Source: Leptodactylus fallax (taxonomy: Eukaryota > Chordata > Amphibia > Anura > Leptodactylidae). From it: 64,000 bases of DNA. The translations under genes and the position numbers were made by a program. Below, one piece after another: positions 2,151-64,000 of the stretch (the first letter of the stretch is position 1; each line of letters opens with the position of its first letter). The stretch is taken from NCBI GenBank assembly GCA_947044405.1, contig CAMRHE010000646.1:583001-647000 (forward strand), read 5' to 3'. The notes below the pieces were generated by a model that saw only the letters and a list, made by a program, of their open reading frames with translations, was not told the DNA's origin and made no database searches.

Positions 2151-2721
2151 TGTATATTAGGTCATGAATATTAGAATAGAATTATGAAAAATACATATAT
2201 ATACATATAGTGAAATCTACTCCCCTGATGTTTCACTCTCTTATCTTACATTTCTCCACTATTTAGTAGACAGATAAGTAATTCTGATTCGATCGTCCAT
2301 CCTCAGATTCCTCTTGCCGCCGTCCTCCATGCATCCATATTAATTTCTCCCTCCCACATTCTAATAGAGTTTCTTAGATGGTTCCCGATCACCAGGAGGA
2401 TTGAAAATGATCAAATCTGTTCATGGTCAGTTGGTAACCAATCCTTATTGTATTACATGCAGTATTGAGGCGTGTGGTATGATGTGCCTCCAGCAATAGT
2501 CTGTAAGTTTTGACCCCTCCCCTACTCTAATAAGAGCTCTACTGAAAGTCCTGCCCTTTACCTCCACAGAACTTTCCGTCACTTTTTGGTTTCCCTTGTA
2601 TTTTATTAACGTGTGTGATGAAGCATGAGACACGGGATGACCAGAACTAACTCCGCATGGTGCTAGTGTTGCCCTGGTGAGCACCATCACCAAATACTAA
2701 TTGACAAATTTACATCACTAG
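2151..2721. other. intronic unique sequence with splice acceptor
   Basis: Single-copy intron sequence between the 45-bp array and the obscurin-A terminal exon. I see no convincing exon. Near its end a branch-point-like TACTAAT (2694-2700) is followed by the first downstream AG at 2720-2721, a plausible 3' splice site for the next exon. The minus-strand frame 2445-2693 has no recognisable content. Confidence 0.6.
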
Positions 2722-4090
2722 AGAGGAGACGATAACAACAGTGGTGAAGAGTCCTAGGATGAGAAGAAGAATGTCCCCAGGCAGATCTCCATCACGTCCA
2801 ACCTCAGGACACTCTCCAGCAAGAACCCCCAGATCTGAACTGTCCACACCAGAGCCTCACTTTGTATCACGAGGCAGACAGTCCGTCTTTAGATCTGAAC
2901 AAGAAACTCGAAGAACTGTGGTGCCCACACTCTTCATCACAGAGCCAGAAGATGAACGAGGAGCCTCTGCCCGGCCTGATGAGCAAAAGTCTCGATGGGT
3001 TGAGGTGGAAGAAATTATTGAATTCAAAGTGAAGAAATCTCCAAAACCACAAAGGAAAAGAGGAATGTCTCCAGCTAAACCAGAGAAAGATGACCGATCT
3101 GGAAAGAAGTTCACCCAGTACAGCTCAAGATCAAGAGGATTCCCTGGAGATGACCCGAACACAAACAACTCCAACAATAAACTGGTGGAGGAGTCAAAGT
3201 CCACACTAACATCTTGTAGCTTATCAGAAGTGGACATCCCATCAATGGAGTATCAACTCATAGAACAAGACTCCGAGGCTGAGGATGAACTTGGTCCCCA
3301 AGGTGCATCAGAGCAAACAGATGATGTAGAAGAAGGTCGTGGTATCATCACTGAACCTGAATCCCCAGTAGCTGCTCGTGAGATATTTCATATTCCAGAG
3401 GATGAAAGGTCTTCTCCACCAGTAGAGACAGATACCAGTGAAAATAACTCAAAACTTCCAGTTGACCAAACCATGTCTTTAGAAGTAGAAGATGTCATTG
3501 TGGAAGAACCAGCAGATGACGATACTGAAGACTTAAGAAACAGAGATAAAAAAATTCTTACTCGTGATGGGAAAGTTCTGACTTTAGAAGATCTTGAGGA
3601 TTATGTTCCCGGTCAAGGAGAGACTTATGGATGTGATGAAGATGTTGCAAACATCTCAGAAAGTGCTCCATGTCAGATCTCTGTACTACAGGCAGAAATA
3701 AATGAGCCAACCATTGGCAAACCTGTGCTGCTAAATGTGGGGAGGCCTGTAGTACCGAAACAGAGGCAGAGTTTCTTCAGCCACTTAAAAGATGGCATTG
3801 GAAGCATGTTCACAGCAGGCTCAAGAATGACGAGGATGAATATGATGGGATCCGCAAATGTTTCTTTCCGCATGAAGGAAACCACTGTGGCAGCAGCTAC
3901 TGTCAGTGCTTCATCAACCAGTCAACCATCCTTTAACATTAAGCCCTCTTTCTGCACTGAGGTCCAACGTTCAGTAGACAACGGGCAACCCAGCTTCAAG
4001 ACTGAAGTTTCTACAAGAACCTTAAATTATGGAACCCTGGGAGAAACTGTTACTTTACACATAAGTAAAAAGGACCCTTCACAAAGTTAA
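2722..4090 (+). CDS. OBSCN: obscurin-A alternative terminal exon (non-modular C-terminus)
   Basis: Terminal coding exon of the kinase-less obscurin-A isoform, about 455 residues ending in TAA at 4088-4090. From the GTG at 2741 as residue 1 one sees: an SP/TP-rich basic segment (1-35); WVEVEEIIEFKVKK (86-99); a DPNTNNSNNKL block (138-148); an acidic Glu/Asp-rich middle; LTLEDLEDYVPG (280-291); SVLQAEINEPTIGKPVLL (314-331); and GETVTLHI near the end. These blocks match, in order, the unique C-terminus of mammalian obscurin-A as I recall it. In mammals that region binds small ankyrin-1 of the sarcoplasmic reticulum and ankyrin-B; assigning the two hydrophobic/acidic blocks as the ankyrin sites is inference. 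The start is set by the acceptor AG at 2720-2721, with AG at 2740-2741 (exon from 2742) as the alternative. The exon lacks any Ig, FnIII or kinase domain. Confidence 0.9.
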
Positions 4091-30440: not shown

Positions 30441-31803
30441 AGTGCCTTGCGAAAGTATTCAGCCCCCTTGAACTTTTCAACCTTTTGCCACATTTCAGGC
30501 TTCAAACATAAAGATATAAAATTTAAAATTTTTGGTGAAGAATCCAACAAGTGGGACACAATTGTGAAGTGGAACGAAATGTATTGGTTATTTTAAACTT
30601 TTGTAAATAATAAAAACTGAAAAGTGGGGCGTGCAATATTATTCGGCCCCTTTACTTTCCGTGCAGCAAACTCAGTCCAGAAGTTCAGTGAGGATCTCTG
30701 AATGATCCAATGTTGTCCTAAATGTCTGATGATGATAAATATAATCCACCTGTGTGTACAAGTCTCTGTATAAATGCACCTGCTCTGTGATAGTCTCAGG
30801 GTTCTGTTTAAAGCGCAGAGAGCATCATGAAGACCAAGGAACACACCAGGCAGGTTCGTGATACTGTTGTTGAGAAGTTTAAAGCCGGATTTGGATACAA
30901 AAAGATTTCCCAAACTTTAAACATCCCAAGGAGCACTGTGCAAGCGATCATATTGTAATGGAAGGAGTATCAGACCACTGCAAATCTACCAAGACCCGGC
31001 CGTCCATCTAAACTTTCATCTCAAACAAGGAGAAGACTGATCAGAGATGCAGCCAAGAGGCCCATGATCACTCTGGATGAACTGCAGAGATCTACAGCTG
31101 AGGTGGGAGAGTCTGTCCATAGGACAACAATCAGTCGTACACTGCACAAATCTGGCCTTTATGGAAGAGTGGCAAGAAGAAAGCCATTTCTCAAAGATAT
31201 CCATAAAAAGCCACCTGGGAGACACCAAACATGTGGAAGAAGGTGCTCTGCTCAGAGGGAACCAAAATCCAACTTATTGGCCACAATGCAAAACGATATG
31301 TTTGGCGTAAAAGCAACACAGCTCATCCCCCTGAACACACCATCCCCACTGTCACACATGGTGGGGGCAGCATCATGGTTTGGGCCTGCTTTTCTTCAGC
31401 AGGGACAGGGAAGATGGTTAAAATTGATGGGAAGATGGATGGAGCCAAATACAGGACCATTCTGGAAGAAAACCTGTTGGAGTCTGCAAAAGACCTGAGA
31501 CTGGGACGGAGATTTATCTTCCAACAAGACAATGATCCCAAACATAAAGCCAAATCTACAATGGAATGGTTCCCAAATAAACGTATCCAGGTGTTAGAAT
31601 GGCCAAGTCAAAGTCCAGACCTGAATCCAATCGAGAATCTGTGGAAAGAGCTGAAAACTGCTGTTCACAAACGCTCTCCATCCAACCTCACTGAGCTCCA
31701 GCTGTTTTCCAAGGAAGAATGGGCAAGAACTGATAGAGACAAACCCCAAGCGACTTGTAGCTGTAATCGCAGTGAAAGGGGGCGCTACAAAGTATTAACT
31801 TAA
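30441..31803 (+). mobile_element. Tc1-like DNA transposon, 3' truncated
   Basis: The left terminal sequence CAGTGCCTTGCGAAAG (30441) is typical of a Tc1-like family widespread in fish and frogs. A leader and a transposase-derived region follow. Similarity stops at the end of the transposase (about 31803); the inverted right terminal repeat is missing, so the copy cannot be mobilised. Confidence 0.88.
30827..31803 (+). pseudogene. Tc1-like transposase pseudogene
   Basis: It starts at ATG 30827 with MKTKEHTRQVRDTVVEKF, the helix-turn-helix DNA-binding region, followed by an in-frame stop near 30955. The remainder is scattered over at least two frames: 31064-31230 carries the second DNA-binding part (ITLDELQRSTAEVGESVH) and 31231-31803 the catalytic part. 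A deletion at about 31210 removes roughly twenty bases. The first catalytic Asp region (normally WSDE) reads CSEG, so that Asp is lost, whereas QQDNDPKHK and SPDLNPIENLWKE remain. Stop codon, frameshifts and active-site loss make it dead. Confidence 0.9.
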
Positions 31804-34200: not shown

Positions 34201-34366
34201 GTAATGGTGGGCTTGTTTGATCCCATCTTAAATTGTATGGCTGACTTAAGGATGAATGGTCAGTGGGGGGGCACCTGGATCGTAACATTACTCGTATGAC
34301 TAGAAGACACATAATGAGGTCACCACTGACCACTCAGGTTGAAGTCCTTGTGTTTATTATTTACAG

Positions 34367-34479
34367 GACCCCCCTATATGCAGGTGACCATAGAAGATGT
34401 CCACACCCACTGCGGAGAAACAGCCCAGTTTGATGCTGTGATTGATGGAAGCTCCCCACTGACCATAACCTGGTATAAG
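34367..34479 (+). CDS. OBSCN: obscurin Ig domain, N-terminal half
   Basis: A 113-bp exon with acceptor TTATTTACAG (ends 34366) and donor AAG|GTAAGA (34480). It reads PPYMQVTIEDVHTHCGETAQ and then FDAVIDG, SPLTITWYK: strands A to C of an I-set immunoglobulin domain. The core Trp is present (TWYK). The B-strand position that usually holds Cys is Phe (AQF), so no canonical disulfide can form. The MQVTIEDV start and the Phe in place of Cys match the Ig domain just before the first kinase of mammalian obscurin as I recall it. The last 26 bases of this exon are the source of the tandem array that fills the next intron. Confidence 0.92.
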
Positions 34480-36340
34480 GTAAGACCCCACTGACCATAA
34501 CCTGGTATAAGGTAAGACCCCACTGACCATAACCTGGTATAAGGTAAGACCCCACTGACCATAACCTGGTATAAGGTAAGACCCCACTGACCATAACCTG
34601 GTATAAGGTAAGACCCCACTGACCATAACCTGGTATAAGGTAAGACCCCACTGACCATAACCTGGTATAAGGTAAGACCCCACTGACCATAACCTGGTAT
34701 AAGGTAAGACCCCACTGACCATAGCCTGGTATAAGGTAAGACCCCACTGACCATAGCCTGGTATAAGGTAAGACCCCACTGACCATAACCTGGTATAAGG
34801 TAAGACCCCACTGACCATAACCTGGTATAAGGTAAGACCCCACTGACCATAACCTGGTATAAGGTAAGACCCCACTGACCATAACCTGGTATAAGGTAAG
34901 ACCCTACTGACCATAGCCTGGTATAAGGTAAGACCCCACTGACCATAACCTGGTATAAGGTAAGACCCCACTGACCATAACCTGGTATAAGGTAAGACCC
35001 CACTGACCATAACCTGGTATAAGGTAAGACCCCACTGACCATAACCTGGTATAAGGTAAGACCCCACTGACCATAACCTGGTATAAGGTAAGACCCCACT
35101 GACCATAACCTGGTATAAGGTAAGACCCCACTGACCAAACCGGATAAGGAAGACCCCACTGACCATAACCTGGTATAAGGTAAGACCCCACTGACCATAA
35201 CCTGGTATAAGGTAAGACCCCACTGACCATAACCTGGTATAAGGTAAGACCCCACTGACCATAACCTGGTATAAGGTAAGACCCCACTGACCATAACCTG
35301 GTATAAGGTAAGACCCCACTGACCATAACCTGGTATAAGGTAAGACCCCACTGACCATAACCTGGTATAAGGTAAGACCCCACTGACCATAAGCCCCCCT
35401 GGTATAAGGTAAGACCCCACTGACCATAACCTGGTATAAGGTAAGACCCCACTGACCATAACCTGGTATAAGGTAAGACCCACTGACCATAGCCTGGTAT
35501 AAGGTAAGACCCCACTGACCATAACCTGGTATAAGGTAAGACCCCACTGACCATAACCTGGTATAAGGTAAGACCCCACTGACCATAACCTGGTATAAGG
35601 TAAGACCCCACTGACCATAACCTGGTATAAGGTAAGACCCCACTGACCATAGCCTGGTATAAGGTAAGACCCCACTGACCATAGCCTGGTATAAGGTAAG
35701 ACCCCACTGACCATAACCTGGTATAAGGTAAGACCCCACTGACCATAGCCTGGTATAAGGTAAGACCCCACTGACCATAACCTGGTAGCCCCTAAGGTAA
35801 GACCCCACTGACCATAACCTGGTATAAGGTAAGACCCCACTGACCATAACCTGGTATAAGGTAAGACCCCACTGACCATAACCTGGTATAAGGTAAGACC
35901 CCACTGACCATAACCTGGTATAAGGTAAGACCCACTGACCATAGCCTGGTATAAGGTAAGACCCCACTGACCATAACCTGGTATAAGGTAAGACCCCACT
36001 GACCATAACCTGGTATAAGGTAAGACCCCACTGACCATAACCTGGTATAAGGTAAGACCCCACTGACCATAACCTGGTATAAGGTAAGACCCCACTGACC
36101 ATAACCTGGTATAAGGTAAGACCCCACTGACCATAGCCTGGTATAAGGTAAGACCCCACTGACCATAACCTGGTATAAGGTAAGACCCCACTGACCATAA
36201 CCTGGTATAAGGTAAGACCCCACTGACCATAACCTGGTATAAGGTAAGACCCCACTGACCATAACCTGGTATAAGGTAAGACCCCACTGACCATAACCTG
36301 GTATAAGGTAAGACCCCACTGACCATAGCCTGGCATACAG
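34454..36340 (+). repeat. 32-bp array duplicating the exon/intron boundary
   Basis: About 58 head-to-tail copies of a 32-bp unit. The first copy is the last 26 bases of exon 34367-34479 plus the first 6 intron bases (GTAAGA). Nearly every copy repeats CCTGGTATAAGGTAAGACC and so contains a 5' splice site identical to the real one. Copies vary mainly at CCATAACC/CCATAGCC. Indel copies lie near 35135, 35394, 35480, 35786 and 35930. The last copy (36313-36340) has lost the donor (GGCATACAGG). After it only about 53 bases remain before the acceptor at 36393. The long minus-strand frames of up to 721 codons (34357-36539) are artefacts. Confidence 0.97.
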
Positions 36341-36393
36341 GAGGACGCCTTCTGTGCATGCACTTTATAAAAACTTGTCTTTTGCTTTCACAG

Positions 36394-36562
36394 GACAATG
36401 GCCTGTTGAAGGAGAATGATAGAATGAAGACGTTGCGAGAAGGAGGGAAATATTCCCTGATCATCCAGAACACGGAGTCTGGAGATGGCGGGGTGTACAC
36501 ATGTGTGGCCCACAACTCTGCTGGAGAAGTGTCCTGCAAGGCCGAGCTCCTTATGGTTTCTG
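36394..36562 (+). CDS. OBSCN: obscurin Ig domain, C-terminal half
   Basis: A 169-bp exon following acceptor TTTGCTTTCACAG (ends 36393); donor G|GTAATT at 36563. It joins in phase 0 to WYK and reads DNGLLKENDRMK, GGKYSLIIQNTESGDGGVY, TCVAHNSAGEVSCKAELL: strands C' to G of the I-set domain. The F-strand motif DGGVYTC supplies the conserved Tyr and Cys. The match to mammalian obscurin (VYTC, then CKAELL) is strong. An ATG at 36358 in the intron is not a start. Confidence 0.93.
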
Positions 36563-36842
36563 GTAATTATATCTCCATGTAATACTACATACTGTATACA
36601 CACATGTCCATATAATACTACATATACACACATCTCCATATAACACTACATACGCATACATCTCCATATAACACTACATACGTATACATCTCCATATAAT
36701 ATTACATATACACCTCCATATAACAACACTATATAAACACACATCTGGAACCATACAGCAGTGCACCTTGGGAGCCAAGATGGTGGCTATACAGTCAGAA
36801 TGCAGCAGTGAGGCTCCATCAGAGACAGAAGTGCAAAGAAAT
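36563..36842. other. intron start with short ATA-rich repeats
   Basis: The beginning of the 9.9-kb intron between the Ig and kinase exons. It carries six or so loose copies of a roughly 27-30-bp motif containing ATCTCCATATAACACTACAT (36600-36730), then unique sequence. Confidence 0.7.
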
Positions 36843-38467
36843 GCAGTGTTACATTGTATCCCCCCATTCCTGCAGTGTTACATTGTATCCCCCCATTCCT
36901 GCAGTGTTACATTGTATCCCCCCATTCCTGCAGTGTTACATTGTATCCCCCCATTCCTGCAGTGTTACATTGTATCCCCCCACTCCTGCAGTGTTACATT
37001 GTATCCCCCCATTCCTGCAGTGTTACATTGTATCCCTCCCACTCCTGCAGTGTTACATTGTATCCCCCCCACTCCTGCAGTGTTACATTGTATCCCTCCC
37101 ACTCCTGCAGTGTTACATTGTATCCCTCCCACTCCTGCAGTGTTACATTGTATCCCCCCCATTCCTGTAGTGTTACATTGTATCCCCCCACTCCTGCAGT
37201 GTTACATTGTATCCCCCCCATTCCTGCAGTGTTACATTGTATCCCCCCATTCCTGCAGTGTTACATTGTATCCCCCCCACTCCTGCAGTGTTACATTGTA
37301 TCCCTCCCACTCCTGCAGTGTTACATTGTATCCCCCCCATTCCTGCAGTGTTACATTGTATCCCCCCCATTCCTGCAGTGTTACATTGTATCCCCCCCAT
37401 TCCTGCAGTGTTACATTGTATCCCCCCCACTCCTGCAGTGTTACATTGTATCCCCCCCACTCCTGCAGTGTTACATTGTATCCCCACCATTCCTGCAGTG
37501 TTACATTTGTATCCCCCCCCATTCCTGCAGTGTTACATTTTGTATCCCCCCCATTCCTGCAGTGTTACATTGTATCCCCCCATTCCTGCAGTGTTACATT
37601 GTATCCCCCCATTCCTGCAGTGTTACATTGTATCCCCCCACTCCTGCAGTGTTACATTGTATCCCCCCACTCCTGCAGTGTTACATTTTGTATCCCCCCA
37701 TTCCTGCAGTGTTACATTTTGTATCCCCCCATTCCTGCAGTGTTACATTGTATCCCCCCATTCCTGCAGTGTTACATTGTATCCCCCCATTCCTGCAGTG
37801 TTACATTGTATCCCCCCATTCCTGCAGTGTTACATTGTATCCCCCCATTCCTGCAGTGTTACATTGTATCCCCCCCACTCCTGCAGTGTTACATTTGTAT
37901 CCCCCCATTCCTGCAGTGTTACATTTTGTATCCCCCCCATTCCTGCAGTGTTACATTGTATCCCCCCCATTCCTGCAGTGTTACATTGTATCCCCCCATT
38001 CCTGCAGTGTTACATTGTATCCCCCCATTCCTGCAGTGTTACATTGTATCCCCCCATTCCTTCAGTGTTACATTATATCCCCCCCATTCCTTCAGTGTTA
38101 CATTGTATCCCCCCCACTCCTGCAGTGTTACATTGTATCCCCCCCATTCCTTCAGTGTTACATTGTATCCCCCCCATTCCTTCAGTGTTACATTGTATCC
38201 CCCCCACTCTTGCAGTGTTACATTGTATCCCCCCATTCCTGCAGTGTTACATTGTATCCCCCCACTCCTGCAGTGTTACATTGTATCCCCCACTCCTGCA
38301 GTGTTACATTGTATCCCCCCACTCCTGCAGTGTTACATTGTATCCCCCCCACTCCTGCAGTGTTACATTGTATCCCCCCACTCCTGCAGTGTTACATTGT
38401 ATCCCCCCCATTCCTGCAGTGTTACATTGTATCCCCTCATTCCTGCAGTGTTACATTGTATCCCCCC
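36843..38467. repeat. C-rich ~30-bp array, first block
   Basis: About 55 copies of a 28-31-bp unit, ATTCCTGCAGTGTTACATTG plus TATCCCCCC, whose length varies mainly with the C-run (five to eight). Alternative forms are ACTCCTGCAG and ATTCCTTCAG. Its continuation after the LTR element starts at 42540 with the same unit, so it was one array before insertion. All large plus-strand frames (for example 36768-38819) are array artefacts. Confidence 0.97.
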
Positions 38468-38823
38468 TGTGATGATTCTGCTTAAATATGGCTATAACTC
38501 AAAGCTGTATTTTGGTCTCTGGGTAGCGTATCGCTTTACTCATAAGGTGTGCAGCCATAATCATAGGTATATTGCCAATAGTGGCCGGACTGGAACAATA
38601 GGGCTTTGTATCCATCCCAGCAGGGCTCCATTGTATTCCTACACAGCCCTGAGTGATCAAAGAAACATGCATTGTCCAGTCTGCACTGGTAGATCAGATA
38701 TGGCTGATAACATTGTATCCTTTCACTTGGTCTCAGCTCAATACAAAGAATCTGGACTTGAGTGCGTTAGTCAATCAGACTTGCTGTCGCCGGTGACCTC
38801 ATTCTGGGAAGTGGCATAAAGGG

Positions 38824-41663: not shown

Positions 41664-42539
41664 TGTGATGATTCTGCTTAAATATGGCTATAACTCAAAG
41701 CTGTATTTTGGTCTCTGGGTAGCGTATCTCTTTACTCATAAGGTGCGCAGCCATAATCATAGATATATTGCCAATAGTGGCCGGACTGGAACAATAGGGC
41801 TTTGTATCCATCCCAGCAGGGCTCCATTGTATTCCTACACAGCCCTGAGTGATCAAAGAAACATGCATTGATCAGTCTGCATTGGTAGATCAGATATGGC
41901 TGATAACATTGTATCCTTTCACTTGGTCTCAGCTCAATACAAAGAATCTGGACTTGAGTGCGTTAGTCAATCAGACTTGCTGTCGCCGGTGACCTCATTC
42001 TGGGAGGTGGCATAAAGGGTATATAAGATGAGGTAAGAGGTCAGTGGGGGGAGATTGTGCTGGGACTACCAGAGAACACTATGAAGAGTTTTTACAGACA
42101 GACTACAGGATATTACAGACAGACCACTGTGAAGAGCATGCAGGCTGGATTATTGTATTGATGCCACATGCTAGGAGTTAATGTCGCTGCCTCCACTGAT
42201 TATCCCCACATGCCATGTGTGAGTGTTGGACTATAGAGCCACATCAAGGAGATGCGTGGTAAAGTAATTATTTCACTTTTATTCCCTTTTTATTTAATTG
42301 CACTGTATCTTGTAACTAGTAAGTGTAAATGCTTGTATATATCTACATATCTGTTCTGAACTGTATGTGCTAGATGTTAATACCGACCCATTTAGGGGTT
42401 AATAAATATATAAAATTTAGAAAGCTTGTCTTGTATTTATCTTGTGGACCCAACACTCACTGGCGGTGAGTGTGGTTTTATATGAAAGAAGACTCAGGTG
42501 TGAGCCAAAGCGGTGTTGGCGCACTGAGGATCTTTCACA
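41664..42539 (+). repeat. 3' LTR
   Basis: An 876-bp LTR, a close direct repeat of 38468-39322. It is preceded by the polypurine tract and followed by the resumed 30-bp array. The main difference from the 5' copy is a duplicated GACTACAGGATATTACAGAC segment near 42101-42120. Confidence 0.9.
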
Positions 42540-43079
42540 CCCCCATTCCTGCAGTGTTACATTGTATCCCCCCCATTCCTGCAGTGTTACATTATATCCC
42601 CCCCACTCCTGCAGTGTTACATTGTATCCCCCCATTCCTGCAGTGTTACATTGTGTCCCCCCCATTCCTGCAGTGTTACGTTGTATCCCCCCATTCCTGC
42701 AGTGTTACATTATATCCCCCCACTCCTGCAGTGTTACATTGTATCCCCCCATTCCTGCAGTGTTACATTGTATCCCCCCCATTCCTGCAGTGTTACATTG
42801 TATCCCCCATTCCTGCAGTGTTACATTGTATCCCCCCATTCCTGCAGTGTTACATTGTATCCACCCCACTCCTGCAGTGTTACATTGTATCCCCCCACTC
42901 CTGCAGTGTTACGTTGTATCCCCCCCACTCCTGCAGTGTTACATTGTATCCCCCCCACTCCTGCAGTGTTACATTGTATCCCCCCCACTCCTGCAGTGTT
43001 ACATTGTATCCCCCCCACTCCTGCAGTGTTACATTGTATCCCCCCCCCCCCACTCCTGCAGTGTTACATTGTATCCCCC
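42540..43079. repeat. C-rich ~30-bp array, second block
   Basis: About 18 further copies of the same unit as at 36843-38467, split from it by the LTR element. It contains a C-run of 12 near 43040. Confidence 0.96.
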
Positions 43080-45462: not shown

Positions 45463-46187
45463 CCCACCCCCCCACTCCTGCAGTGTTACATTGTATCCCC
45501 CCCACTCCTGCAGTGTTACATTGTATCCCCCCCACTCCTGCAGTGTTACATTGTATCCCCCCCCACTCCTGCAGTGTTACATTGTATCCCCCCCACTCCT
45601 GCAGTGTTACATTGTATCCCCCCCCACTCCTGCAGTGTTACATTGTATCCCCCCCCACTCCTGCAGTGTTACATTGTATCCCCCATTCCTGCAGTGTTAC
45701 ATTGTATCCCCCATTCCTGCAGTGTTACATTGTATCCCCCATTCCTGCAGTGTTACATTGTATCCCCCCCCCCACTCCTGCAGTGTTACATTGTATCCCC
45801 CCCATTCCTGCAGTGTTATGTTGTATCCCCCCATTCCTGCAGTGTTACGTTGTATCCCCCCCATTCCTGCAGTGTTACGTTGTATCCCCCCCATTCCTGC
45901 AGTGTTACATTGTATCCCCCCCCACTCCTGCAGTGTTACATTGTATCCCCCCCATTCCTGCAGTGTTACGTTGTATCCCCCCCACTCCTGCAGTGTTACA
46001 TTGTATCCCCCCCACTCCTGCAGTGTTACATTGTATCCCCCCCATTCCTGCAGTGTTACATTGTATCCCCCCATTCCTGCAGTGTTACATTGTATCCCCC
46101 CACTCCTGCAGTGTTACATTGTATCCCCCCCCACTCCTGCAGTGTTACATTGTATCCCCCCCATTCCTGCAGTGTTACATTGTATCT
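45463..46187. repeat. C-rich ~30-bp array, third block
   Basis: About 24 more copies of the TTCCTGCAGTGTTACATTGT unit with longer C-runs (six to nine). A single copy (44530-44565) lies between the inverted LTR and the solo LTR. Confidence 0.96.
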
Positions 46188-46442: not shown

Positions 46443-46524
46443 ATGAGAGAGAACAAGAGACAAAGCGGCAGCTCCGGAGGCGGAAACTGAAGTCTTTCTT
46501 CGAGGTTAAGGAAGAGATTGGGAG
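46443..46524 (+). CDS. OBSCN: obscurin exon entering first kinase domain
   Basis: An 82-bp exon with acceptor TTTCTAG (ends 46442) and donor GTAGGA (46525). It joins in phase 1 to the Ig exon and reads DEREQEQETKRQLRRRKLK, SFFEVKEEIGR. It is a highly charged linker followed by the first beta strand of the kinase fold; EVKEEIGRG begins the glycine-rich loop. The linker-to-kinase transition with RRKL.SF.EVKEEIGRG is the pattern I recall for mammalian obscurin. Confidence 0.93.
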
Positions 46525-46735
46525 GTAGGAGGAGTATTACATGTTACATGTGACATATGACATATTACATGGCTGTCACCTGTTACTCAGGATCTGCTTC
46601 AGTTATATCAACAGTTTATATTACTGCAAGCTGATGCTAGGGGACTACTCTCCTCATCATTCCACCTACTATCAGCACTCCCAGCAATCTCTCAATTAAT
46701 GCAATGCTGAGTACATAGTCCTTTCTCTATGACCC
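46525..46735. other. intron start, unique sequence
   Basis: Short unique stretch with ACATGTTACATGTGACATAT-type loose repeats just after the donor. Confidence 0.5.
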
Positions 46736-47640
46736 TCCCCACCACACTCCTGGTGCTCTTCCTCGCTGTCCCTCCCCACCACACTCCTGGTGCTCTTCCT
46801 CACTGACCCTCCCCACCACACTCCTGGTGCTCTTCCTCACTGACCCTCCCCACCACACTCCTGGTGCTCTTCCTCACTGACCCTCCCCACCACACTCCTG
46901 GTGCTCTTCCTCACTGACCCTCCCCACCACACTCCTGGTGCTCTTCCTCGCTGTCCCTCCCCACCACACTCCTGGTGCTCTTCCTCGCTGTCCCTCCCCA
47001 CCACACTCCTGGTGCTCTTCCTCACTGACCCTCCCCACCACACTCCTGGTGCTCTTCCTCACTAACCCTCCCCACCACACTCCTGGTGCTCTTCCTCACT
47101 AACCCTCCCCACCACACTCCTGGTGCTCTTCCTCACACCTCCCCACCACACCCCCTCCCCTGACCCTCCCCACCACACTCCTGGTGCCCTTCCTCACTGA
47201 CCCTCCACACCACACTCCTGGTGCTCTTCCTCAGTGACCCTCCACACCACACTCCTGGTGCCCTTCCTCACTGACCCTCCACACCACACCCTTGGTGCTC
47301 TTCCTCACTGACTCTCTCCACCGCTCCTGGTGCTCTTCCTCACTTACCCTCCACACCACACTCCTGGTGCTCTTCCTCTCTGACCCTCTCCACCTCACTC
47401 CTGGTGCTCTTCCTCTCTGACCCTCTCCACCTCACTCCTGGAGCTCTTCCTCACTGACCCTCCCCACCACACTTGTGCTCTTTCACAATGACCCTCTCTA
47501 CCTCACTCCTGGAGCTCTTAATCAATGACCCTCCTCACCTTATTCCTTGAGCTCTTGCTCACTGACCCTTTTAACCTCACCCCTGAAGTTCTTGCTCACT
47601 AATCCTATCCACCTCACTCCTGAAGCTCTTACACACATCC
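46736..47640. repeat. 37-bp pyrimidine-rich array next to splice acceptor
   Basis: About 24 copies of a 37-bp unit containing CACTCCTGGTGCTCTTCCTC and ACTGACCCTCCCCACCA on the sense strand, increasingly diverged toward the 3' side. It runs almost into the acceptor of the kinase exon at 47665. Each unit has a branch-point-like CTGAC followed by pyrimidines. Confidence 0.95.
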
Positions 47641-47664: not shown

Positions 47665-47865
47665 GGGATCCTTTGGCTTTGTAAAGCGAGTCGTACACAA
47701 AGGAAACGGAGCCACATGTGCGGCCAAATTCATTCCGCTGAGGAGCAAGACCCGGCAGCAGGCGTACCGAGAGCGGGATATCTTATCAGAGGTGTCACAT
47801 GACAGGATCACCCTGCTACTGGATGCCTTTGAAACCAAAAAGACATTAATTCTCATTATGGAGAT
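47665..47865 (+). CDS. OBSCN: obscurin first kinase domain, N-lobe exon
   Basis: A 201-bp exon with acceptor TTTCTTGTCTTCAG (ends 47664) and donor GTATCC (47866). With the previous exon it completes the glycine-rich loop IGRGSFGFVKRV. The ATP-anchoring Lys is in CAAKFIP, and the helix-C Glu is probably in QAYRERDIL. It continues HDRITLLLDAFETKKTLIL. The segments FGFVKRV, AAKFIPLRS and QAYRERDIL match the first of the two obscurin kinases and differ from the SPEG kinases. The N-lobe residues needed for ATP binding are all present. The catalytic loop lies downstream of the window. Confidence 0.96.
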
Positions 47866-49306
<1,441 letters not shown>

Positions 49307-49308
49307 TA

Positions 49309-49560
49309 TGTGAGTATCTGTGTGCCTGGATTCCACAGGTGTGTGTAGGGATCATAGGTCTGTATGTAGGGATTGTACACATGTGTTTAGGGATCATAGA
49401 TTTGTGTGTAGGGAGTGTACACGTGTGTAGGGATCATATATCTGTGTGTAGGGATTGTACACGTGTGTAGGGATCATAGATTTGTGTGTAGGGATCATAG
49501 ATTTGTGTGTAGGGATCATAGATGTGTGTAGGGATCATCCATCCATGTGTATCCCTCCTT
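49309..49560. repeat. ~24-bp array, second part
   Basis: About 9 copies of GTGTGTAGGGATCATAGATT-like units, the continuation of 47866-48232 interrupted by the Tc1 element. Confidence 0.85.
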
Positions 49561-49577
49561 ACTGTACTTAACGTCAG

Positions 49578-49638
49578 ATGTTGCGGAGAAGAACTGTTGG
49601 ATCGGCTCTTTCGGAAACACACGATCACTGAGAAAGAG
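49578..49638 (+). CDS. OBSCN: obscurin first kinase domain, hinge and helix D exon
   Basis: A 61-bp exon with acceptor CTTAACGTCAG (ends 49577) and donor GTGAGA (49639). It completes the codon begun at 47865 and reads CCGEELLDRLFRKHTITEKE. This is the kinase hinge and helix D. EELLDRL and the following RK..(T/V)TE pattern match obscurin closely. It ends in phase 0. The following exons (helix E, catalytic loop, DFG) are beyond the window, so the intron after it exceeds 14 kb. Confidence 0.94.
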
Positions 49639-50929: not shown

Positions 50930-53900
50930 GTGTTGTGGGCTGTGCTGGGGTGTTGTAGGGAACTGCAGAGTGTTTCAGGGTGAAGTTGGGTGTTTCAGAA
51001 TGTTCTAGGGCCATGAAGGTTGTTGTAGGAAGCTGCAGGGTGTTGCATAGTGGTGTAGAGTGTTGCAGGGAACTGCAGGATGCTCTATGATATTGTAGGG
51101 AATTTTGGGGTGTTACATGGAGTTATAGGGTGTTGTAGAACGTTCTGTGGTATTGTGGGGTGTTGCAGGGTGTTCTCTGGTATTGTAGGGTGCTGCAGGA
51201 TGCTCTGTGGTATTGTAGGGTGTTGCAGTTTTCTAGGGTGTTGCAGGATGTTCTGTGTTATTGTAGGGTGCTGCAGGATGTTCTGTAGTGTTGCAGGGTG
51301 TTCTTTGGTATTGTGGGGTGCTGCAGGATGTTCTGTGGTATTGTAGGGTGTTGCAGCATGTTCTGTGGTATTGTAGGGTGCTGCAGGATGTTCTGTGGTA
51401 TTGTAGGGTGCTGCAGGATGTTCTGTGGTATTGTGGGGTGCTGCAGGATGTTCTGTGGTATTGTAGGGTGTTGCAGCATGTTCTGTGGTATTGTAGGGTG
51501 TTGCAGGATGGTCTGTGGTATTGTAGGGTGCTACAGGATGCTCTGTGGTATTGTAGGGTGCTGCAGGATGTTCTGTGGTATTGTAGGGTGTTGCAGGATG
51601 TTCTGTGGTATTGTGGGGTGCTGCAGGGTGTTCTATGGTATTGTAGGGTGTTGCAGGATGTTCTGTGGTATTGTGGGGTGCTGCAGGATGTTCTGTGGCA
51701 TTGTGGGGTGTTGCAGGATGTTCTGTGGTATTGTAGGGTGCTGCAGGATGTTCTATGGTATTGTGGGGTGTTGCAGGATGTTCTGTGGTATTGTAGAGTG
51801 CTGCAGGATGTTCTGTGTTATTGTAGGGTGCTGCAGGGTGTTCTGTGGTATTGTGGGGTGCTGCAGGATGTTCTGTGGTATTGTAGGGTGCTGCAGGATG
51901 TTGTGGGGTGTTGGAGGATGTTCTGTGGTATTGTAGGGTGTTGCAGGGTGTTCTGTGATATTGTAGGGTGTTGCAGGATGTTCTGTGCTATTGTAGGGTG
52001 TTGCAGGATGGTCTGTGGTATTGTAGGGTGCTGCAGGATGTTCTGTGGTATTGTAGGGTGTTGCAGGATGGTCTGTGGTATTGTAGGGTGTTGCAGGATG
52101 GTCTGTGGTATTGTAGGGTGCTGCAGGATGTTCTGTGGTATTGTAGGGTGTTGCAGGATGGTCTGTGGTATTGTAGGGTGCTGCAGGATGTTCTGTGGTA
52201 TTGTAGGGTGTTGCAGGATGGTCTGTGGTATTGTAGGGTGCTGCAGGATGTTCTGTGGTATTGTAGGGTGTTGCAGGATGTTCTGTAGTGTTGCAGGGTG
52301 TTCTGTGGTATTGTGGGGTGCTGCAGGATGTTCTGTGGTATTGTAGGGTGCTGCAGGATGCTCTGTGGTATTGTAGGGTGTTGCAGTTTTGTAGGGTGTT
52401 GCAGGATGTTTTGTGTTATTGTAGGGTGCTGCAGCATATTCTGTGGTATTGTAGGGTGTTGCAGGATGCTCTGTGGTATCGTAGGGTGCTGCAGGATGTT
52501 TTGTGGTATTGTAGGGTGTTGCAGGGTGTTCTGTGGTATTGTGGGGTGCTGCAGGATGTTCTGTGGTATTGTAGGGTGCTGCAGGATGTTCTGTGGTATT
52601 GTGGGGTGTTGGAGGATGTTCTGTGGTATTGTAGGGTGTTGCAGGGTGTTCTGTGATATTGTAGGGTGTTGCAGGGTGTTCTGTGGTATTGTAGGGTGTT
52701 GCAGGATGTTCTGTGGTATTGTAGGGTGCTGCAGGATGTTCTGTGGTATTGTGGGGTGTTGCAGGGTGTTCTGTGGTATTGTGGGGTGTTGCAGGGTGTT
52801 CTGTGGTATTGTAGGGTGTTGCAGGATGTTCTGTGGTATTGTGGGGTGGTGCAGGATGTTCTGTGGTATTGTGGGGTGTTGCAGGATGTTCTGTGCTATT
52901 GTAGGGTGTTGCAGGATGTTCTGTGGTATTGTAGGGTGCTGCAGGATGTTCTGTGGTATTGTAGGGTGCTGCAGGATGTTCTGTGGTATTGTAGGGTGTT
53001 GCAGGATGTTCTGTGGTATTGTAGGGTGCTGCAGGATGTTCTGTGGTATTGTAGGGTGTTGCAGGATGTTCTGTGCTATTGTAGGGTGTTGCAGGATGTT
53101 CTGTGGTATTGTAGGGTGCTGCAGGATGTTCTGTGGTATTGTAGGGTGCTGCAGGATGTTCTGTGGTATTGTGGGGTCTTGCAGGATGTTCTGTGTTATT
53201 GTAGGGTGCTGCAGGGTGTTCTGTGGTATTGTGGGGTGTTGAAGGGTGATCTGTGGTATTGTAGGGTGCTTCAGGATGCTCTGTGCTATTGTAGGGTGTT
53301 GCAGGATGCTTTGTGGTATTGTAGGGTGTTGCAGGGTGTTCTGTGGTATTGTGGGGTGTTGCAGGGTGTTCTGTGGTATTGTAGGGTGCTGCAGGATGTT
53401 ATGTGGTATAGTAGGGTGCTGCAGGATGTTCTGTGGTATTGCAGGTTCTTGCAGGATGTTCTGTGGTATTGTGGGGTGTTGGAGGATGCTCTGTGCTATT
53501 GTAGGGTGTTGCAGGATGTTCTGTGGTATTGTAGGGTGCTGCAGGAAGCTCTGTGCTATTGTAGGGTGTTGCAGGATGTTCTGTGGTATTGTGGGGTGTT
53601 GCAGGATGTTCTGTGGTATTGTAGGGTTCTGCAGGATGTTCTGTGGTATTGTAGGGTGCTGCAGGATGTTCTGTGGTATTGTAGGGTGTTGCAGGATGTT
53701 CTGTGGTATTGTAGGGTGCTGCAGGATGTTCTGTGGTATTGTAGGGTGCTGCAGGATGTTCTGTGGTATTGTAGGGTGCTGCAGGATGTTCTGTGCTATT
53801 GTAGGGTGCTGCAGGATGTTCTGTGGTATTGTAGGGTGTTGCAGGGTGTTCTGTGGTATTGTAGGGTGCTGCAGGATGTTCTGTGGTATTGTAGGGTGTT

Positions 53901-56900
53901 GCAGGGTGTTCTGTGCTATTGTAGGGTATTGCAGGATGTTCTGTGGTATTGTAGGGTGTTGCAGGATGTTCTGTGGTATTGTGGGGTGTTGCAGGATGCT
54001 CTGTGGTATTGTAGGGTGTTGCAGGATGCTCTGTGGTATTGTAGGGTGCTGCAGGATGTTCTGTGGTATTGTGGGGTGCTGCAGGATGTTCTGTGGTATT
54101 GTAGGGTGTTGCAGGGTGTTCTGTGGTATTGTGGGGTGCTGCAGGATGTTCTGTGGTATTGTAGGGTGTTGCAGGATGTTCTGTGGTATTGTGGCGTGTT
54201 GCAGGATGTTCTGTGGTATTGTAGGGTGCTGCAGGATGTTCTGTGGTATTGTAGGGTGTTGCAGGATGTTCTGTGGTATTGTAGGGTGCTGCAGGATGTT
54301 CTGTGGTATTGTAGGGTGTTGCAGGGTGTTCTGTGGTATTGTGGGGTGTTGTAGGATGCTCTTTGGTATTGTAGGGTGTTGCAGGATGTTCTGTGCTATT
54401 GTAGGGTGCTGCAGGGTGCTCTGTGGTATTGTAAGGTGTTGCAGGGTGTTCTGTGGTATTGTAGAGTGTTACAGGATGTTCTGTGGTATTGGGGGATGAT
54501 GCGGGTGTCGTGGTATTGTAGGGTGTTCTGTGGTATTGTGGGGTGTCGCAGGGTGTTCTGTGGTATTGTGGGGTGTTGCAGGGTGTTCTGTGGTATTGTA
54601 GGGTGTTTCAGGGTGTTCCCTGGTATTGTAGGGTGTTGCAGGATGTTCTGTGGTATTGTAGGGTGTTTCAGGGTGTTCTCTGGTATTGTGGGGTGTTGCA
54701 GGATGTTCTGTGGTATTGTGGGGTGTTACAGGGTGTTCTGTGGTATTGTAGGGTGTTTCAGGGTGTTCTCTGGTATTGTAGGGTGTTGCAGGATGTTCTG
54801 TGTTATTGTAGGGTGTTTCAGGGTGTTCTCTGGTATTGTGGGGTGTTGCAGGGTGTTCTGTGGTATTGTGGGGTGTAGCAGGGTGTTCTGTGGTATTGTG
54901 AGGTGTTTCAGGGTGTTCTGTGGTATTGTAGGATGTTGCAGGGTGTTATGTGGTATTGTAGGGTGTTGCAGGGTGTTCTATGGTATATTGGGGTGTTGCA
55001 GGATGTTCTGTGGTATTGTAGGGTGTTGCAGGGTGTTCTGTGGTATTGTGGGGTGTTGCAGGGTGTTCTGTGGTATTGTAGGGTGTTGCAGGATGTTCTG
55101 TGGTATTGTGGGGTGTTGCAGGATGTTCTGTGGTATTGTAGGGTGTTGCAGGGTGTTATGTGGTATTGTAGGGTGTTGGAGGGTGTTATGTGGTATTGTG
55201 AGGTGTTGCAGGGTGTTCTGTGGTATTGTAGGGTGCTGCAGGATGTTCTGTGGTATTGTAGGGTGTTGCAGGGTGTTCTGTGGTATTGTAGGGTGTTGCA
55301 GGGTGTTCTGTGGTATTGTAGGGTGTTCTGTGGTATTGTGGGGTGTTGCAGGATGCTCTGTGGTATTGTAGGGTGTTGCAGGGTGTTCTGTGGTATTGTA
55401 GGGTGCTGCAGGATTATCTGTAGAATTGTAGGGTGTTGCAGGATGCTCTGTGGTATTGTGAGGTGTTGCAGGGTGTTCTTTGGTATTGTAGGGTGTTCTG
55501 TGGTATTGTGAGGTGTTTCAGGGTGTTCTGTGGAATTGTGGGGTGTTGCAGGGTGTTCTGTGGTATTGTAGGGTGTTTCAGGGTGTTCTCTGGTATTGTG
55601 GGGTGTTGCAGGATGTTCTGTGGTATTGTGGGGTGTTGCAGGATGTTCTGTGGTATTGTGGGGTGTTGCAGGGTGTTCTGTGGTATTGTGGGGTGCTGCA
55701 GGATGTTCTGTGGTATTGTAGGGTGCTGCAGGATGTTCTGTGGTATTGTGGGGTGTTGGAGGATGTTCTGTGGTATTGTAGGGTGTTGCAGGGTGTTCTG
55801 TGATATTGTAGGGTGTTGCAGGGTGTTCTGTGGTATTGTAGGGTGTTGCAGGATGTTCTGTGGTGTTGTAGGGTGCTGCAGGATGTTCTGTGGTATTGTG
55901 GGGTGTTGCAGGATGTTCTGTGGTATTGTGGGGTGTTGCAGGGTGTTCTGTGGTATTGTAGGGTGTTGCAGGATGTTCTGTGGTATTGTGGGGTGGTGCA
56001 GGATGTTCTGTGGTATTGTGGGGTGTTGCAGGATGTTCTGTGCTATTGTAGGGTGTTGCAGGATGTTCTGTGGTATTGTAGGGTGCTGCAGGATGTTCTG
56101 TGGTATTGTAGGGTGCTGCAGGATGTTCTGTGGTATTGTAGGGTGTTGCAGGATGTTCTGTGGTATTGTAGGGTGCTGCAGGATGTTCTGTGGTATTGTA
56201 GGGTGTTGCAGGATGTTCTGTGCTATTGTAGGGTGTTGCAGGATGTTCTGTGGTATTGTAGGGTGCTGCAGGATGTTCTGTGGTATTGTAGGGTGCTGCA
56301 GGATGTTCTGTGGTATTGTGGGGTCTTGCAGGATGTTCTGTGTTATTGTAGGGTGCTGCAGGGTGTTCTGTGGTATTGTGGGGTGTTGAAGGGTGATCTG
56401 TGGTATTGTGGGGTGTTGCAGGGTGTTCTGTGGTATTGTAGGGTGCTGCAGGATGTTATGTGGTATAGTAGGGTGCTGCAGGATGTTCTGTGGTATTGCA
56501 GGTGCTTCAGGATGCTCTGTGCTATTGTAGGGTGTTGCAGGATGCTCTGTGGTATTGTAGGGTGTTGCAGGGTGTTCTGTGGTATTGTAGGGTGTTGCAG
56601 GGTGTTATGTGGTATTGTAGGGTGTTGCAGGGTGTTATGTGGTATTGTGAGGTGTTGCAGGGTGTTCTGTGGTATTGTAGGGTGCTGCAGGATGTTCTGT
56701 GGTATTGTAGGGTGTTGCAGGGTGTTCTGTGGTATTGTAGGGTGTTGCAGGGTGTTCTGTGGTATTGTAGGGTGTTCTGTGGTATTGTGGGGTGTTGCAG
56801 GATGCTCTGTGGTATTGTAGGGTGTTGCAGGGTGTTCTGTAGTATTGTAGGGTGCTGCAGGATTATCTGTAGAATTGTAGGGTGTTGCAGGATGCTCTGT

Positions 56901-59900
56901 GGTATTGTGAGGTGTTGCAGGGTGTTCTTTGGTATTGTAGGGTGTTCTGTGATATTGTGAGGTGTTTCAGGATGTTCTGTGGTATTGTGAGGTGTTGCAG
57001 GGTGTTCTGTGGAATTGTGGGGTGTTGCAGGGTGTGCTGTGGTATTGTGGGGTGTTGCTGGGTGTTCTGTGGTATTGTAGGGTGTTTCAGGGTGTTCTCT
57101 GGTATTGTGGGGTGTTGCAGGATGTTCTGTGGTATTGTGGGGTGTTGCAGGATGTTCTGTGGTATTGTGGGGTGTTGCAGGGTGTTCTGTGGTATTGTAG
57201 GGTGTTTCAGGGTGTTCTCTGGTATTGTGGGGAGTTGCAGGATGTTCTGTGGTATTGTGGGGTGTTGCAGGGTGTTCTGTGGTATTGTAGGGTGTTTCAG
57301 GGTGTTCTCTGGTATTGTGGGGTGTTGCAGGGTGTTCTGTGGTATTGTAGGGTGTTGCAGGGTGTTATGTGGTATTGTAGGGTGTTGCAGGGTGTTATGT
57401 GGTATTGTGGGGTGTTGCAGGGTGTTCTGTGGTATTGTAGGGTGCTGCAGGATGTTCTGTGGTATTGTAGGGTGTTGCAGGGTGTTCTGTGGTATTGTAG
57501 GGTGTTGCAGGGTGTTCTGTGGTATTGTAGGGTGTTGCAGGGTGTTCTGTGGTATTGTAGGGTGTTTTGTGGTATTGTGGGGTGTTGCAGGGTGTTCTGT
57601 GGTATTGTAGGGTGTTCTGTGGTATTGTGGGGTGTTGCAGGGTGTTCTGTGGTATTGTAGGGTGTTGCAGGGTGTTCTGTGGTATTGTGGGGTGTTGCAG
57701 GATGTTCTGTGGTATTGTAGGGTGTTGCAGGGTGTTATGTGGTATTGTAGGGTGTTGCAGGGTGTTATGTGGTATTGTGAGGTGTTCTGTGGTATTGTAG
57801 GGTGTTGCAGGGTGTTCTGTGGTATTGTGGGGTGTTGCAGGATGTTCTGTGGTATTGTAGGGTGTTGCAGGGTGTTATGTGGTATTGTAGGGTGTTGCAG
57901 GGTGTTCTGTGGTATTGTAGGGTGTTCTGTGGTATTGTGGGGTGTTGCAGGGTGTTCTGTGGTATTGTAGGGTGTTGCAGGGTGTTCTGTGGTATTGTGG
58001 GGTATTGCAGGGTGTTCTGTGGTATTGTAGGGTGCTGCAGGATGTTATGTGGTATAGTAGGGTGCTGCAGGATGTTCTGTGGTATTGCAGGTTCTTGCAG
58101 GATGTTCTGTGGTATTGTGGGGTGTTGGAGGATGTCTCTGTGCTATTGTAGGGTGTTGCAGGATGTTCTGTGGTATTGTAGGGTGCTGCAGGATGTTCTG
58201 TGGTATTGTAGGGTGCTGCAGGATGTTCTGTGCTATTGTAGGGTGCTGCAGGATGTTCTGTGCTATTGTAGGGTGTTGCAGGGTGTTCTGTGGTATTGTA
58301 GGGTGCTGCAGGATGTTCTGTGGTATTGTAGGGTGTTGCAGGATGTTCTGTGGTATTGTGGGGTGTTGCAGGATGCTCTGTGGTATTGTAGGGTGTTGCA
58401 GGATGCTCTGTGGTATTGTAGGGTGCTGCAGGATGTTCTGTGGTATTGTGGGGTGCTGCAGGATGTTCTGTGGTATTGTAGGGTGTTGCAGGGTGTTCTG
58501 TGGTATTGTGGGGTGCTGCAGGATGTTCTGTGGTATTGTAGGGTGTTGCAGGGTGTTCTGTGGTATTGTAGGGTGTTGCAGGATGTTCTGTGGTATTGTG
58601 GGGTGTTGCAGGATGTTCTGTGGTATTGTAGGGTGCTGCAGGATGTTCTGTGGTATTGTAGGGTGTTGCAGGATGTTCTGTGGTATTGTAGGGTGCTGCA
58701 GGATGTTCTGTGGTATTGTAGGGTGTTGCAGGGTGTTCTGTGGTATTGTGGGGTGTTGTAGGATGCTCTGTGGTATTGTAGGGTGTTGCAGGATGTTCTG
58801 TGCTATTGTAGGGTGCTGCAGGGTGCTCTGTGGTATTGTAAGGTGTTGCAGGGTGTTCTGTGGTATTGTAGGGTGTTACAGGATGTTCTGTGGTATTGGG
58901 GGATGTTGCAGGGTGTTCTGTGGTATTGTAGGGTGTTCTGTGGTATTGTGGGGTATCGCAGGGTGTTCTGTGGTATTGTGGGGTGTTGCAGGGTGTTCTG
59001 TGGTATTGTAGGGTGTTTCAGGGTGTTCCCTGGTATTGTAGGGTGTTGCAGGATGTTCTGTGGTATTGTAGGGTGTTTCAGGGTGTTCTCTGGTATTGTG
59101 GGGTGTTGCAGGATGTTCTGTGGTATTGTGGGGTGTTACAGGGTGTTCTGTGGTATTGTAGGGTGTTTTCAGGGTGTTCTCTGGTATTGTAGGGTGTTGC
59201 AGGATGTTCTGTGGTATTGTAGGGTGTTTCAGGGTGTTCTCTGGTATTGTGGGGTGTTGCAGGGTGTTCTGTGGTATTGTGAGGTGTTTCAGGGTGTTCT
59301 GTGGTATTGTAGGATGTTGCAGGGTGTTATGTGGTATTGTAGGGTGTTGCAGGGTGTTCTATGGTATATTGGGTTGTTGCAGGATGTTCTGTGGTATTGT
59401 AGGGTGTTGCAGGGTGTTCTGTGGTATTGTGGGGTGTTGCAGGGTGTTCTGTGGTATTGTAGGGTGTTGCAGGATGTTCTGTGGTATTGTGGGGTGTTGC
59501 AGGATGTTCTGTGGTATTGTAGGGTGTTGCAGGGTGTTATGTGGTATTGTAGGGTGTTGCAGGGTGTTATGTGGTATTGTGAGGTGTTGCAGGGTGTTCT
59601 GTGGTATTGTAGGGTGCTGCAGGATGTTCTGTGGTATTGTAGGGTGTTGCAGGGTGTTCTGTGGTATTGTAGGGTGTTGCAGGGTGTTCTGTGGTATTGT
59701 AGGGTGTTCTGTGGTATTGTGGGGTGTTGCAGGATGCTCTGTGGTATTGTAGGGTGTTGCAGGGTGTTCTGTGGTATTGTAGGGTGCTGCAGGATTATCT
59801 GTAGAATTGTAGGGTGTTGCAGGATGCTCTGTGGTATTGTGAGGTGTTGCAGGGTGTTCTTTGGTATTGTAGGGTGTTCTGTGGTATTGTGAGGTGTTTC

Positions 59901-62900: not shown

Positions 62901-64000
62901 GGATGTTCTGTGGTATTGTAGGGTGTTGCAGGATGTTCTGTGGTATTGTAGGGTGCTGCAGGATGTTCTGTGGTATTGTAGGGTGTTGCAGGATGTTCTG
63001 TGGTATTGTAGGGTGCTGCAGGATGTTCTGTGCTATTGTAGGGTGCTGCAGGATGTTCTGTGGTATTGTAGGGTGTTGCAGGGTGTTCTGTGGTATTGTG
63101 GGGTGCTGCAGGATGTTCTGTGGTATTGTAGGGTGTTGCAGGATGTTCTGTGGTATTGTGGCGTGTTGCAGGATGTTCTGTGGTATTGTAGGGTGCTGCA
63201 GGATGTTCTGTGGTATTGTAGGGTGTTGCAGGATGTTCTGTGGTATTGTAGGGTGCTGCAGGATGTTCTGTGGTATTGTAGGGTGTTGCAGGGTGTTCTG
63301 TGGTATTGTGGGGTGTTGTAGGATGCTCTGTGGATTGTAGGGTGTTGCAGGATGTTCTGTGGTATTGTAGGGTGCTGCAGGGTGCTCTGTGGTATTGTAA
63401 GGTGTTGCAGGGTGTTCTGTGGTATTGTAGAGTGTTCAGGATGTTCTGTGGTATTGGGGGGTGTTGCAGGGTGTTCTGTGGTATTGTAGGGTGTTCTGTG
63501 GTATTGTGGGGTGTTGCAGGGTGTTCTGTGGTATTGTGGGGTGTTGCAGGGTGTTCTGTGGTATTGTAGGGTGTTTCAGGGTGTTCCCTGGTATTGTAGG
63601 GTGTTGCAGGATGTTCTGTGGTATTGTAGGGTGTTTCAGGGTGTTCTCTGGTATTGTGGGGTGTTGCAGGATGTTCTGTGGTATTGTGGGGTGTTACAGG
63701 GTGTTCTGTGGTATTGTAGGGTGTTTCAGGGTGTTCTCTGGTATTGTAGGGTGTTGCAGGATGTTCTGTGGTATTGTAGGGTGTTTCAGGGTGTTCTCTG
63801 GTATTGTGGGGTGTTGCAGGGTGTTCTGTGGTATTGTGGGGTGTTGCAGGGTGTTCTGTGGTATTGTGAGGTGTTTCAGGGTGTTCTGTGGTATTGTAGG
63901 ATGTTGCAGGGTGTTATGTGGTATTGTAGGGTGTTGCAGGGTGTTCTATGGTATATTGGGGTGTTGCAGGATGTTCTGTGGTATTGTAGGGTGTTGCAGG
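50930..64000. repeat. 13-kb array of a 30-bp GT-rich unit with higher-order structure
   Basis: About 430 copies of a 30-bp unit, GTTCTGTGGTATTGTAGGGT plus GTTGCAGGAT, reaching the window end. The first 400 bp are diverged copies that show the array's origin from GTGTTGCAGGG-like sequence. Single-base variants form kilobase-scale repeated blocks: the rare GTTGAAGGGTGATCTG variant occurs near 53240, 56388, 60878 and 62483; GGATTATCTGTAGAATTG near 55420, 56870 and 59800; and TGGTATATTGGG near 54982, 59363 and 63950. Because 30 is a multiple of three, frames stay open for up to 727 codons; these are artefacts. Confidence 0.97.

Follow-up and report, generated by a model that had tools for sequence, protein, structure and literature searches.

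A donor-bearing minisatellite crosses an exon border and fills an intron of a predicted obscurin gene in the frog Leptodactylus fallax

Gene identity and exon structure

The window, by which is meant the whole 64,000-nucleotide stretch of Leptodactylus fallax DNA that was analysed, carries exons of a gene that, judged by its homologues, is obscurin, which is a giant gene of muscle. The coding features that bear on this assignment are as follows (a slash marks a splice junction).

2705..4090, + strand: stop-to-stop ORF of the terminal exon, an obscurin-A-type C-terminal tail found by protein search, with a probable exon start near 2722; it identifies the gene
34367..34479, + strand: exon for the first half of an obscurin Ig (I-set) domain, ending ...TITWYK, from translation, Pfam, the borders AG/GACC and AAG/GTAAGA, and homologues; 3' end in phase 0
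36394..36562, + strand: exon for the second half of the Ig domain (DNGLLKEND...LLMVS), from translation, Pfam and borders; 3' end in phase 1
46443..46524, + strand: linker exon, ...RRRKLKSFFEVKEEIGR, before the kinase, from translation and borders
47665..47865, + strand: kinase exon GSFGFVKRVVHKG..., from a Pkinase match (1.8e-11) on the surrounding ORF, homologues and borders
49578..49638, + strand: next kinase exon CCGEELLDRLFRKHTITEKE, from homologues and borders

A protein search with the 2705-4090 ORF (stop codon included) gave at least 211 matches among 8000 candidates scored, and among the matches listed (the best 120 of 211) are proteins of Ranitomeya imitator and Hyla sarda that are 79% identical and a UniRef 'Obscurin' of the frog Leptobrachium that is 56% identical. 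When the Ig and kinase pieces were used as the query, 59 matches were obtained among 97 candidates, with the best nine being relevant and the weaker ones mostly Ig-domain proteins. These nine comprise obscurin or obscurin-like models from a gecko, two snakes, a rodent and a woodpecker, unnamed or hypothetical models from a third snake, a primate and one 'lgn' contig, and a model from the frog Rhinoderma darwinii that is 78% identical over the Ig domain and linker and is named myosin light chain kinase-like at its source. The available part of PMC3916441 describes obscurin-A as ending in a non-modular C-terminal tail, and obscurin-B as lacking that tail and carrying two kinase domains, with an Ig domain before the first of them. 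The 2705-4090 ORF fits the non-modular tail of obscurin-A. The matches to the Ig and kinase query, taken together with this layout, assign the intron between the two Ig exons to obscurin-B-type sequence; by homology it lies inside an Ig domain upstream of the kinase exons.

Translation across the two joined exons (34367-34479 and 36394-36562) yields an I-set Ig domain (Pfam I-set, 5e-23) whose best PDB matches are titin Ig domains. Among the nine homologues aligned, which are mostly gene models rather than sequenced mRNAs, the residues W36 and K38 near the end of the first exon are nearly invariant, and eight of the nine are gap-free across the WYK/D junction, including Rhinoderma with WYK/DN. 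The ninth, a Saguinus gene model (P0130), has its start three residues upstream of where the second Ig exon begins, a weak hint that this exon border may be old and common to relatives.

Transposase fragments are also present in the window. The intron between the kinase exons (47866-49577) looks like one of the minor (U12) type by the consensus, since it starts with GTATCCTTT and the motifs CCTTAC and CTTAAC immediately precede its acceptor. Within it is a fragment of a Tc1-like transposase (48223-48762, HTH_Tnp_Tc3_2), flanked on both sides by TGTGTAGGGATCATAG arrays. Other transposase fragments are found at 30959-31803, with DDE_3 on 31207-31803, and are presumably Tc1/mariner-like.

A 32-bp array that begins in an exon

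The intron inside the Ig domain consists for the most part of a single tandem array, the features of which are listed below.

34454..36337, + strand: 32-bp tandem array, 58.8 copies by TRF, that begins inside the exon and occupies most of the intron
34480..34485, + strand: first donor, GTAAGA, the sole one of 57 with an open junction to 36394
34492..34494, + strand: TGA in frame with the upstream Ig exon, reached by the products of all 56 downstream donors
35126..35153, + strand: aberrant 28-bp unit, from the sequence and a donor spacing of 60 nt, with four T's missing and the donor lost
36308..36313, + strand: last intact donor, GTAAGA, 86 nt before the exon at 36394
36314..36345, + strand: terminal decayed unit that differs at 6 of 32 positions, with GGAGGA where the donor stood
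36346..36393, + strand: unique intron tail with a pyrimidine-rich tract and the acceptor CAG, from the sequence

TRF reports the array with a period of 32 and 97% matches, in agreement with the original prediction of about 58 tandem copies. The unit consists of CCCCACTGACCATAACCTGGTATAAG, the last 26 bases of the exon, followed by GTAAGA, the first 6 bases of the intron, and the first unit has exactly the composition that had been proposed. By direct count there are 57 intact AAG/GTAAGA donors, from the GT at 34480 to the GT at 36308, and the spacing from donor to donor is 32 in 51 of 56 cases; the claim of some 58 near-identical donors at 32-base steps thus stands as to near identity, with the number and the regularity of the steps corrected. 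The 86-base intron foreseen for the last intact donor was obtained on computation. The figure of about 53 non-repeat bases before the acceptor becomes 48 nt when counted after the decayed unit, or 56 nt when counted from the end given by TRF. This acceptor and its pyrimidine-rich tract are canonical, lie outside the repeat, and are unrelated to the unit.

The array is homogeneous, with the exact 32-bp consensus present in 45 of the 57 segments that end in GTAAGA. The variants among the donor-bearing units include an A to G change at unit position 15 in nine, two of which are 31 bp long and one of which also has a C to T change. In addition, an identical 5-base insertion, GCCCC, occurs in two units at different places (35393 and 35788). 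Both insertions, as well as the loss of four T's in the 28-bp unit, may be consensus or base-calling errors, and the copy number is therefore provisional. Outside the array, the + strand of the window contains none of the unit's 12-mers, which excludes chance as the source of the array.

Antisense ORFs of 676 and 730 amino acids run through the array. A protein search with the longer of these (reverse strand of 34374-36566) gave no match with an E-value of 0.001 or lower among the 7993 candidates scored, and on this result both were set aside as by-products of the repeat.

Tandem arrays elsewhere in the window

Tandem repetition is not confined to this intron, as hand merging of 63 TRF rows gave 25 arrays that make up 41,291 of the 64,000 bases (64.5%). 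An array is present within 60 nt at 6 of 11 exon borders, as compared to a null mean of 0.76, and none of 5000 random placements had as many. In this test, which was post hoc, six exons were placed at random outside arrays between 2200 and 51000, with the 3' border of the stop-codon exon omitted and the short array-filled intron counted at both of its ends. Minisatellites in the obscurin gene thus come close to exons, and the one at 34454-36337 crosses a border.

In the case of a 28-bp array just inside the next intron (36571-36746, with 36595-36746 as the part tested), the unit matches intron bases +9 to +29 at 19 of 21 positions, and none of 2000 shuffles was as good. No resemblance to the adjoining splice region was found for the arrays at 46730-47630, 47902-48232 and 49340-49551 (p of 0.33, 0.73 and 0.14 against shuffles), with the borders of the later exons being one or two bases off in this comparison. 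These three arrays also hug exon borders, and derivation from splice borders is therefore not the rule in the window.

The array at 46730-47630 has a pyrimidine-rich 37-bp unit whose consensus is without AG, and it ends 34 bases before the kinase exon at 47665; its match to these last 34 nt is the one that was no better than shuffles (p 0.33). The unit carries CTGAC/CTCAC, and could supply many copies of a branch point and pyrimidine tract. A 29-30-bp unit, CTGCAGTGTTACATTGTATCCCCCC, is common to three separate arrays (36842-38467, 42540-43079 and 45467-46186), and similar ORF text lies near the first two (38536-38766 and 41732-41962), which suggests duplication or mobility of a stretch that includes the array. 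An array of 30-bp units that is 12.9 kb in length (51102-64000) reaches the end of the window, and the next kinase exons are not yet present there.

Predicted consequences of donor choice

When each of the 57 donors was joined in silico to the acceptor exon at 36394, the first donor alone gave an open frame. Translation from any of the remaining 56 stops at the TGA at 34492, which is the fifth codon beyond the exon; although the 57 donors are divided evenly among the three frame classes (19, 19 and 19), the stop comes first for every donor downstream of the first. Transcripts with an early stop and later introns downstream of it are targets of nonsense-mediated decay, and all 56 downstream-donor products, being followed by later introns, are candidates for this fate.

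The array donor agrees with CAGGTAAGT at 7 of 9 positions, and the corresponding values for the three other major-type donors in the window are 7, 6 and 6. In predicted RNA pairing the first 11 donors are about equally accessible, with a mean unpaired probability of 0.44-0.47, and the folding of these 11 gave no reason to prefer any one of them. The exon-proximal first donor is probably the one that is used, and since it alone leaves the frame open, the downstream 56 are likely to be passive decoys.

Origin of the array and competing explanations

The explanation that we consider probable is that the array is a minisatellite generated by repeated tandem duplication across the Ig exon-intron border, with the intron spliced mainly from the first donor. 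An initial duplication, by slippage or unequal exchange, would have placed a copy of the exon end and its donor into the intron, and further exchange would have enlarged the array and homogenised its units, with selection on the protein assumed to have kept the exon's own copy unchanged. The copied exon tail belongs to the conserved core of the Ig domain, for which reason the direction of copying is taken to be from exon to array, and the intron is taken to be older than the array because its acceptor, a canonical one, bears no relation to the unit. That the intron was filled by duplication of its own 5' border, as the original prediction had it, is apparently correct, given that the unit is the border, the donors are intact and the acceptor is outside the repeat. 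With the array taken out, 54 nt of intron would remain (GTAAGA plus 48), which is short for a vertebrate intron, and the ancestral state may thus have differed from this remnant; the 'once tiny' ancestral intron that had been suggested is possible.

As for splicing of the present intron, the acceptor at 34365-34366 would act through exon definition to favour the nearest donor, giving a 113-nt exon, and nonsense-mediated decay would clear the products of later donors, with their early TGA. On this view the additional donors would be tolerated as decoys, in a region expected to be needed only by the kinase-bearing isoform. A point against this explanation is that the last three intact donors leave introns of 86, 118 and 150 nt, and intron definition could favour these sites over the first.

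A rival explanation is that the array is a regulatory poison device, whose downstream donors would be used often and with the same stop in every case, such that copy number or U1 occupancy would set the amount of kinase-bearing obscurin-B. The stop reached from all 56 downstream donors suits such a device, as does the location of the array in the obscurin-B-specific part of the gene, whereby obscurin-A would be spared, and human OBSCN is said in the accessible text of PMC11871629 to show extensive alternative splicing. However, 25 arrays lie in the window, this one included, and most are without an evident tie to a splice site, and the protein search with the antisense ORF, a weak test of conservation, gave no matches among the candidates scored; we regard a poison device as rather unlikely. 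A related proposal is that of a self-renewing ladder of donors with a shared stop, where each hop would regenerate the same donor and any lower rung, if spliced into the real acceptor, would meet the stop, such that the copy number of a fast-mutating minisatellite would set the level of kinase-bearing obscurin in frog muscle. We hold this to be decidedly unlikely. Recursive splicing by silent hops, with each AAG/GTAAGA serving as a weak 3' site and a donor and the units removed one after another, appears very improbable. Here, AG is juxtaposed to GTAAG in all 57 intact units, with CTGAC, which we take to be a branch-point-like motif, upstream; yet pyrimidines make up 55% of the 20 nt before the AAG of the unit, as opposed to 70% at the true acceptor, and the unit has AAG in place of CAG. 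Annotated recursive-splicing exons are reported to be prevalent in deuterostomes (PMC6224609, as excerpted), and it is in the placing of AG directly before GTAAG that the unit resembles such sites, whereas it differs from them in lacking a good polypyrimidine tract.

The remaining explanations concern whether the array, or the intron, is what it seems. It is unlikely that assembly or consensus errors account for most of the array, with one or few copies at the true locus, even though very homogeneous arrays are difficult to assemble and the two GCCCC insertions and the unit without four T's resemble consensus errors. The scattered variants (the change at position 15, the 31-bp units, the C to T change and the decayed last unit) are those expected of a real array, and the same window has many other arrays with different units. 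In the Rogers model, the intron would have been born when an exon segment with AGGT was duplicated in tandem; in its favour, the unit contains AAGGTAAGA and is an exact copy of the exon end. That model, however, derives both splice sites from the duplicated segment, and the repeat includes neither the acceptor nor the pyrimidine-rich tract, both of which are unrelated to the unit; the start of the Saguinus model, although weak in this respect, also hints that the exon border may be common to relatives. Intron birth by AGGT duplication is hardly credible in this case, and was rejected on the grounds that the acceptor is not repeat-derived.

Relation to known systems

Minisatellites that carry splice donors have a precedent in human IFI6, where the unit is reportedly 12 bp, present in about 26 copies, and gives rise to in-frame isoforms. 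The obscurin array differs in that its 32-bp unit spans the border (26 exon and 6 intron bases), the array is about 1.9 kb with 57 donors, and, in place of in-frame isoforms, every one of its 56 downstream donors meets the stop at 34492, a difference that need not place it outside the IFI6 type. The IFI6 minisatellite supplies multiple splice donors (Turri et al. 1995, listed in PMC4526556 and PMC2572611), and two downstream units are reported to be used as such (PMC4526556). In line with this type, the obscurin array is a tandem repeat whose unit exceeds some 10 bp (32 bp in 58.8 copies) and carries the donor consensus, with the first donor at the exon end.

Variable internal tandem repeats in human genes are characterised in PMC2812944 as minisatellites, with units of 30 bp and 4 units on average, that alter gene structure; some lie at exon-intron boundaries, where it is proposed that they may cause novel introns. 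The obscurin array is likewise a minisatellite at an exon-intron boundary with a unit of about 30 bp; unlike the repeats inferred there to make novel introns, it filled an existing intron that has its own acceptor. In the potato RdRp gene, an intron gain is attributed, in the excerpt of PMC4974935, to tandem duplication across an intron-exon border. Here too the duplication crosses the boundary and splice signals are copied, but the potato case as excerpted involves one duplication only, at the acceptor end, from which a new intron resulted, whereas the obscurin array has many donor-side copies and no new intron.

The original prediction knew of no described family of this kind, a claim that must be withdrawn given that the IFI6 donor minisatellite and the boundary repeats of PMC2812944, as far as the excerpts describe them, are already in print. 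The kind is already known; what is new is the size of the array, the unit that spans the border, and the built-in stop. Among the open-licence PMC titles and abstract openings listed by full-text searches, none describes a donor array this large, or one with a stop for each downstream donor.

The array illustrates how a minisatellite can extend across the border of an exon and take up an intron without closing the exon's reading frame. With 57 identical donors, nearly all at 32-nt steps, sharing one downstream and one upstream acceptor, the locus represents a natural experiment. Counts of the junctions formed from the 57 donors would measure exon definition, which favours the first donor, against short-intron definition, which favours the last, with the strength of the site held constant.
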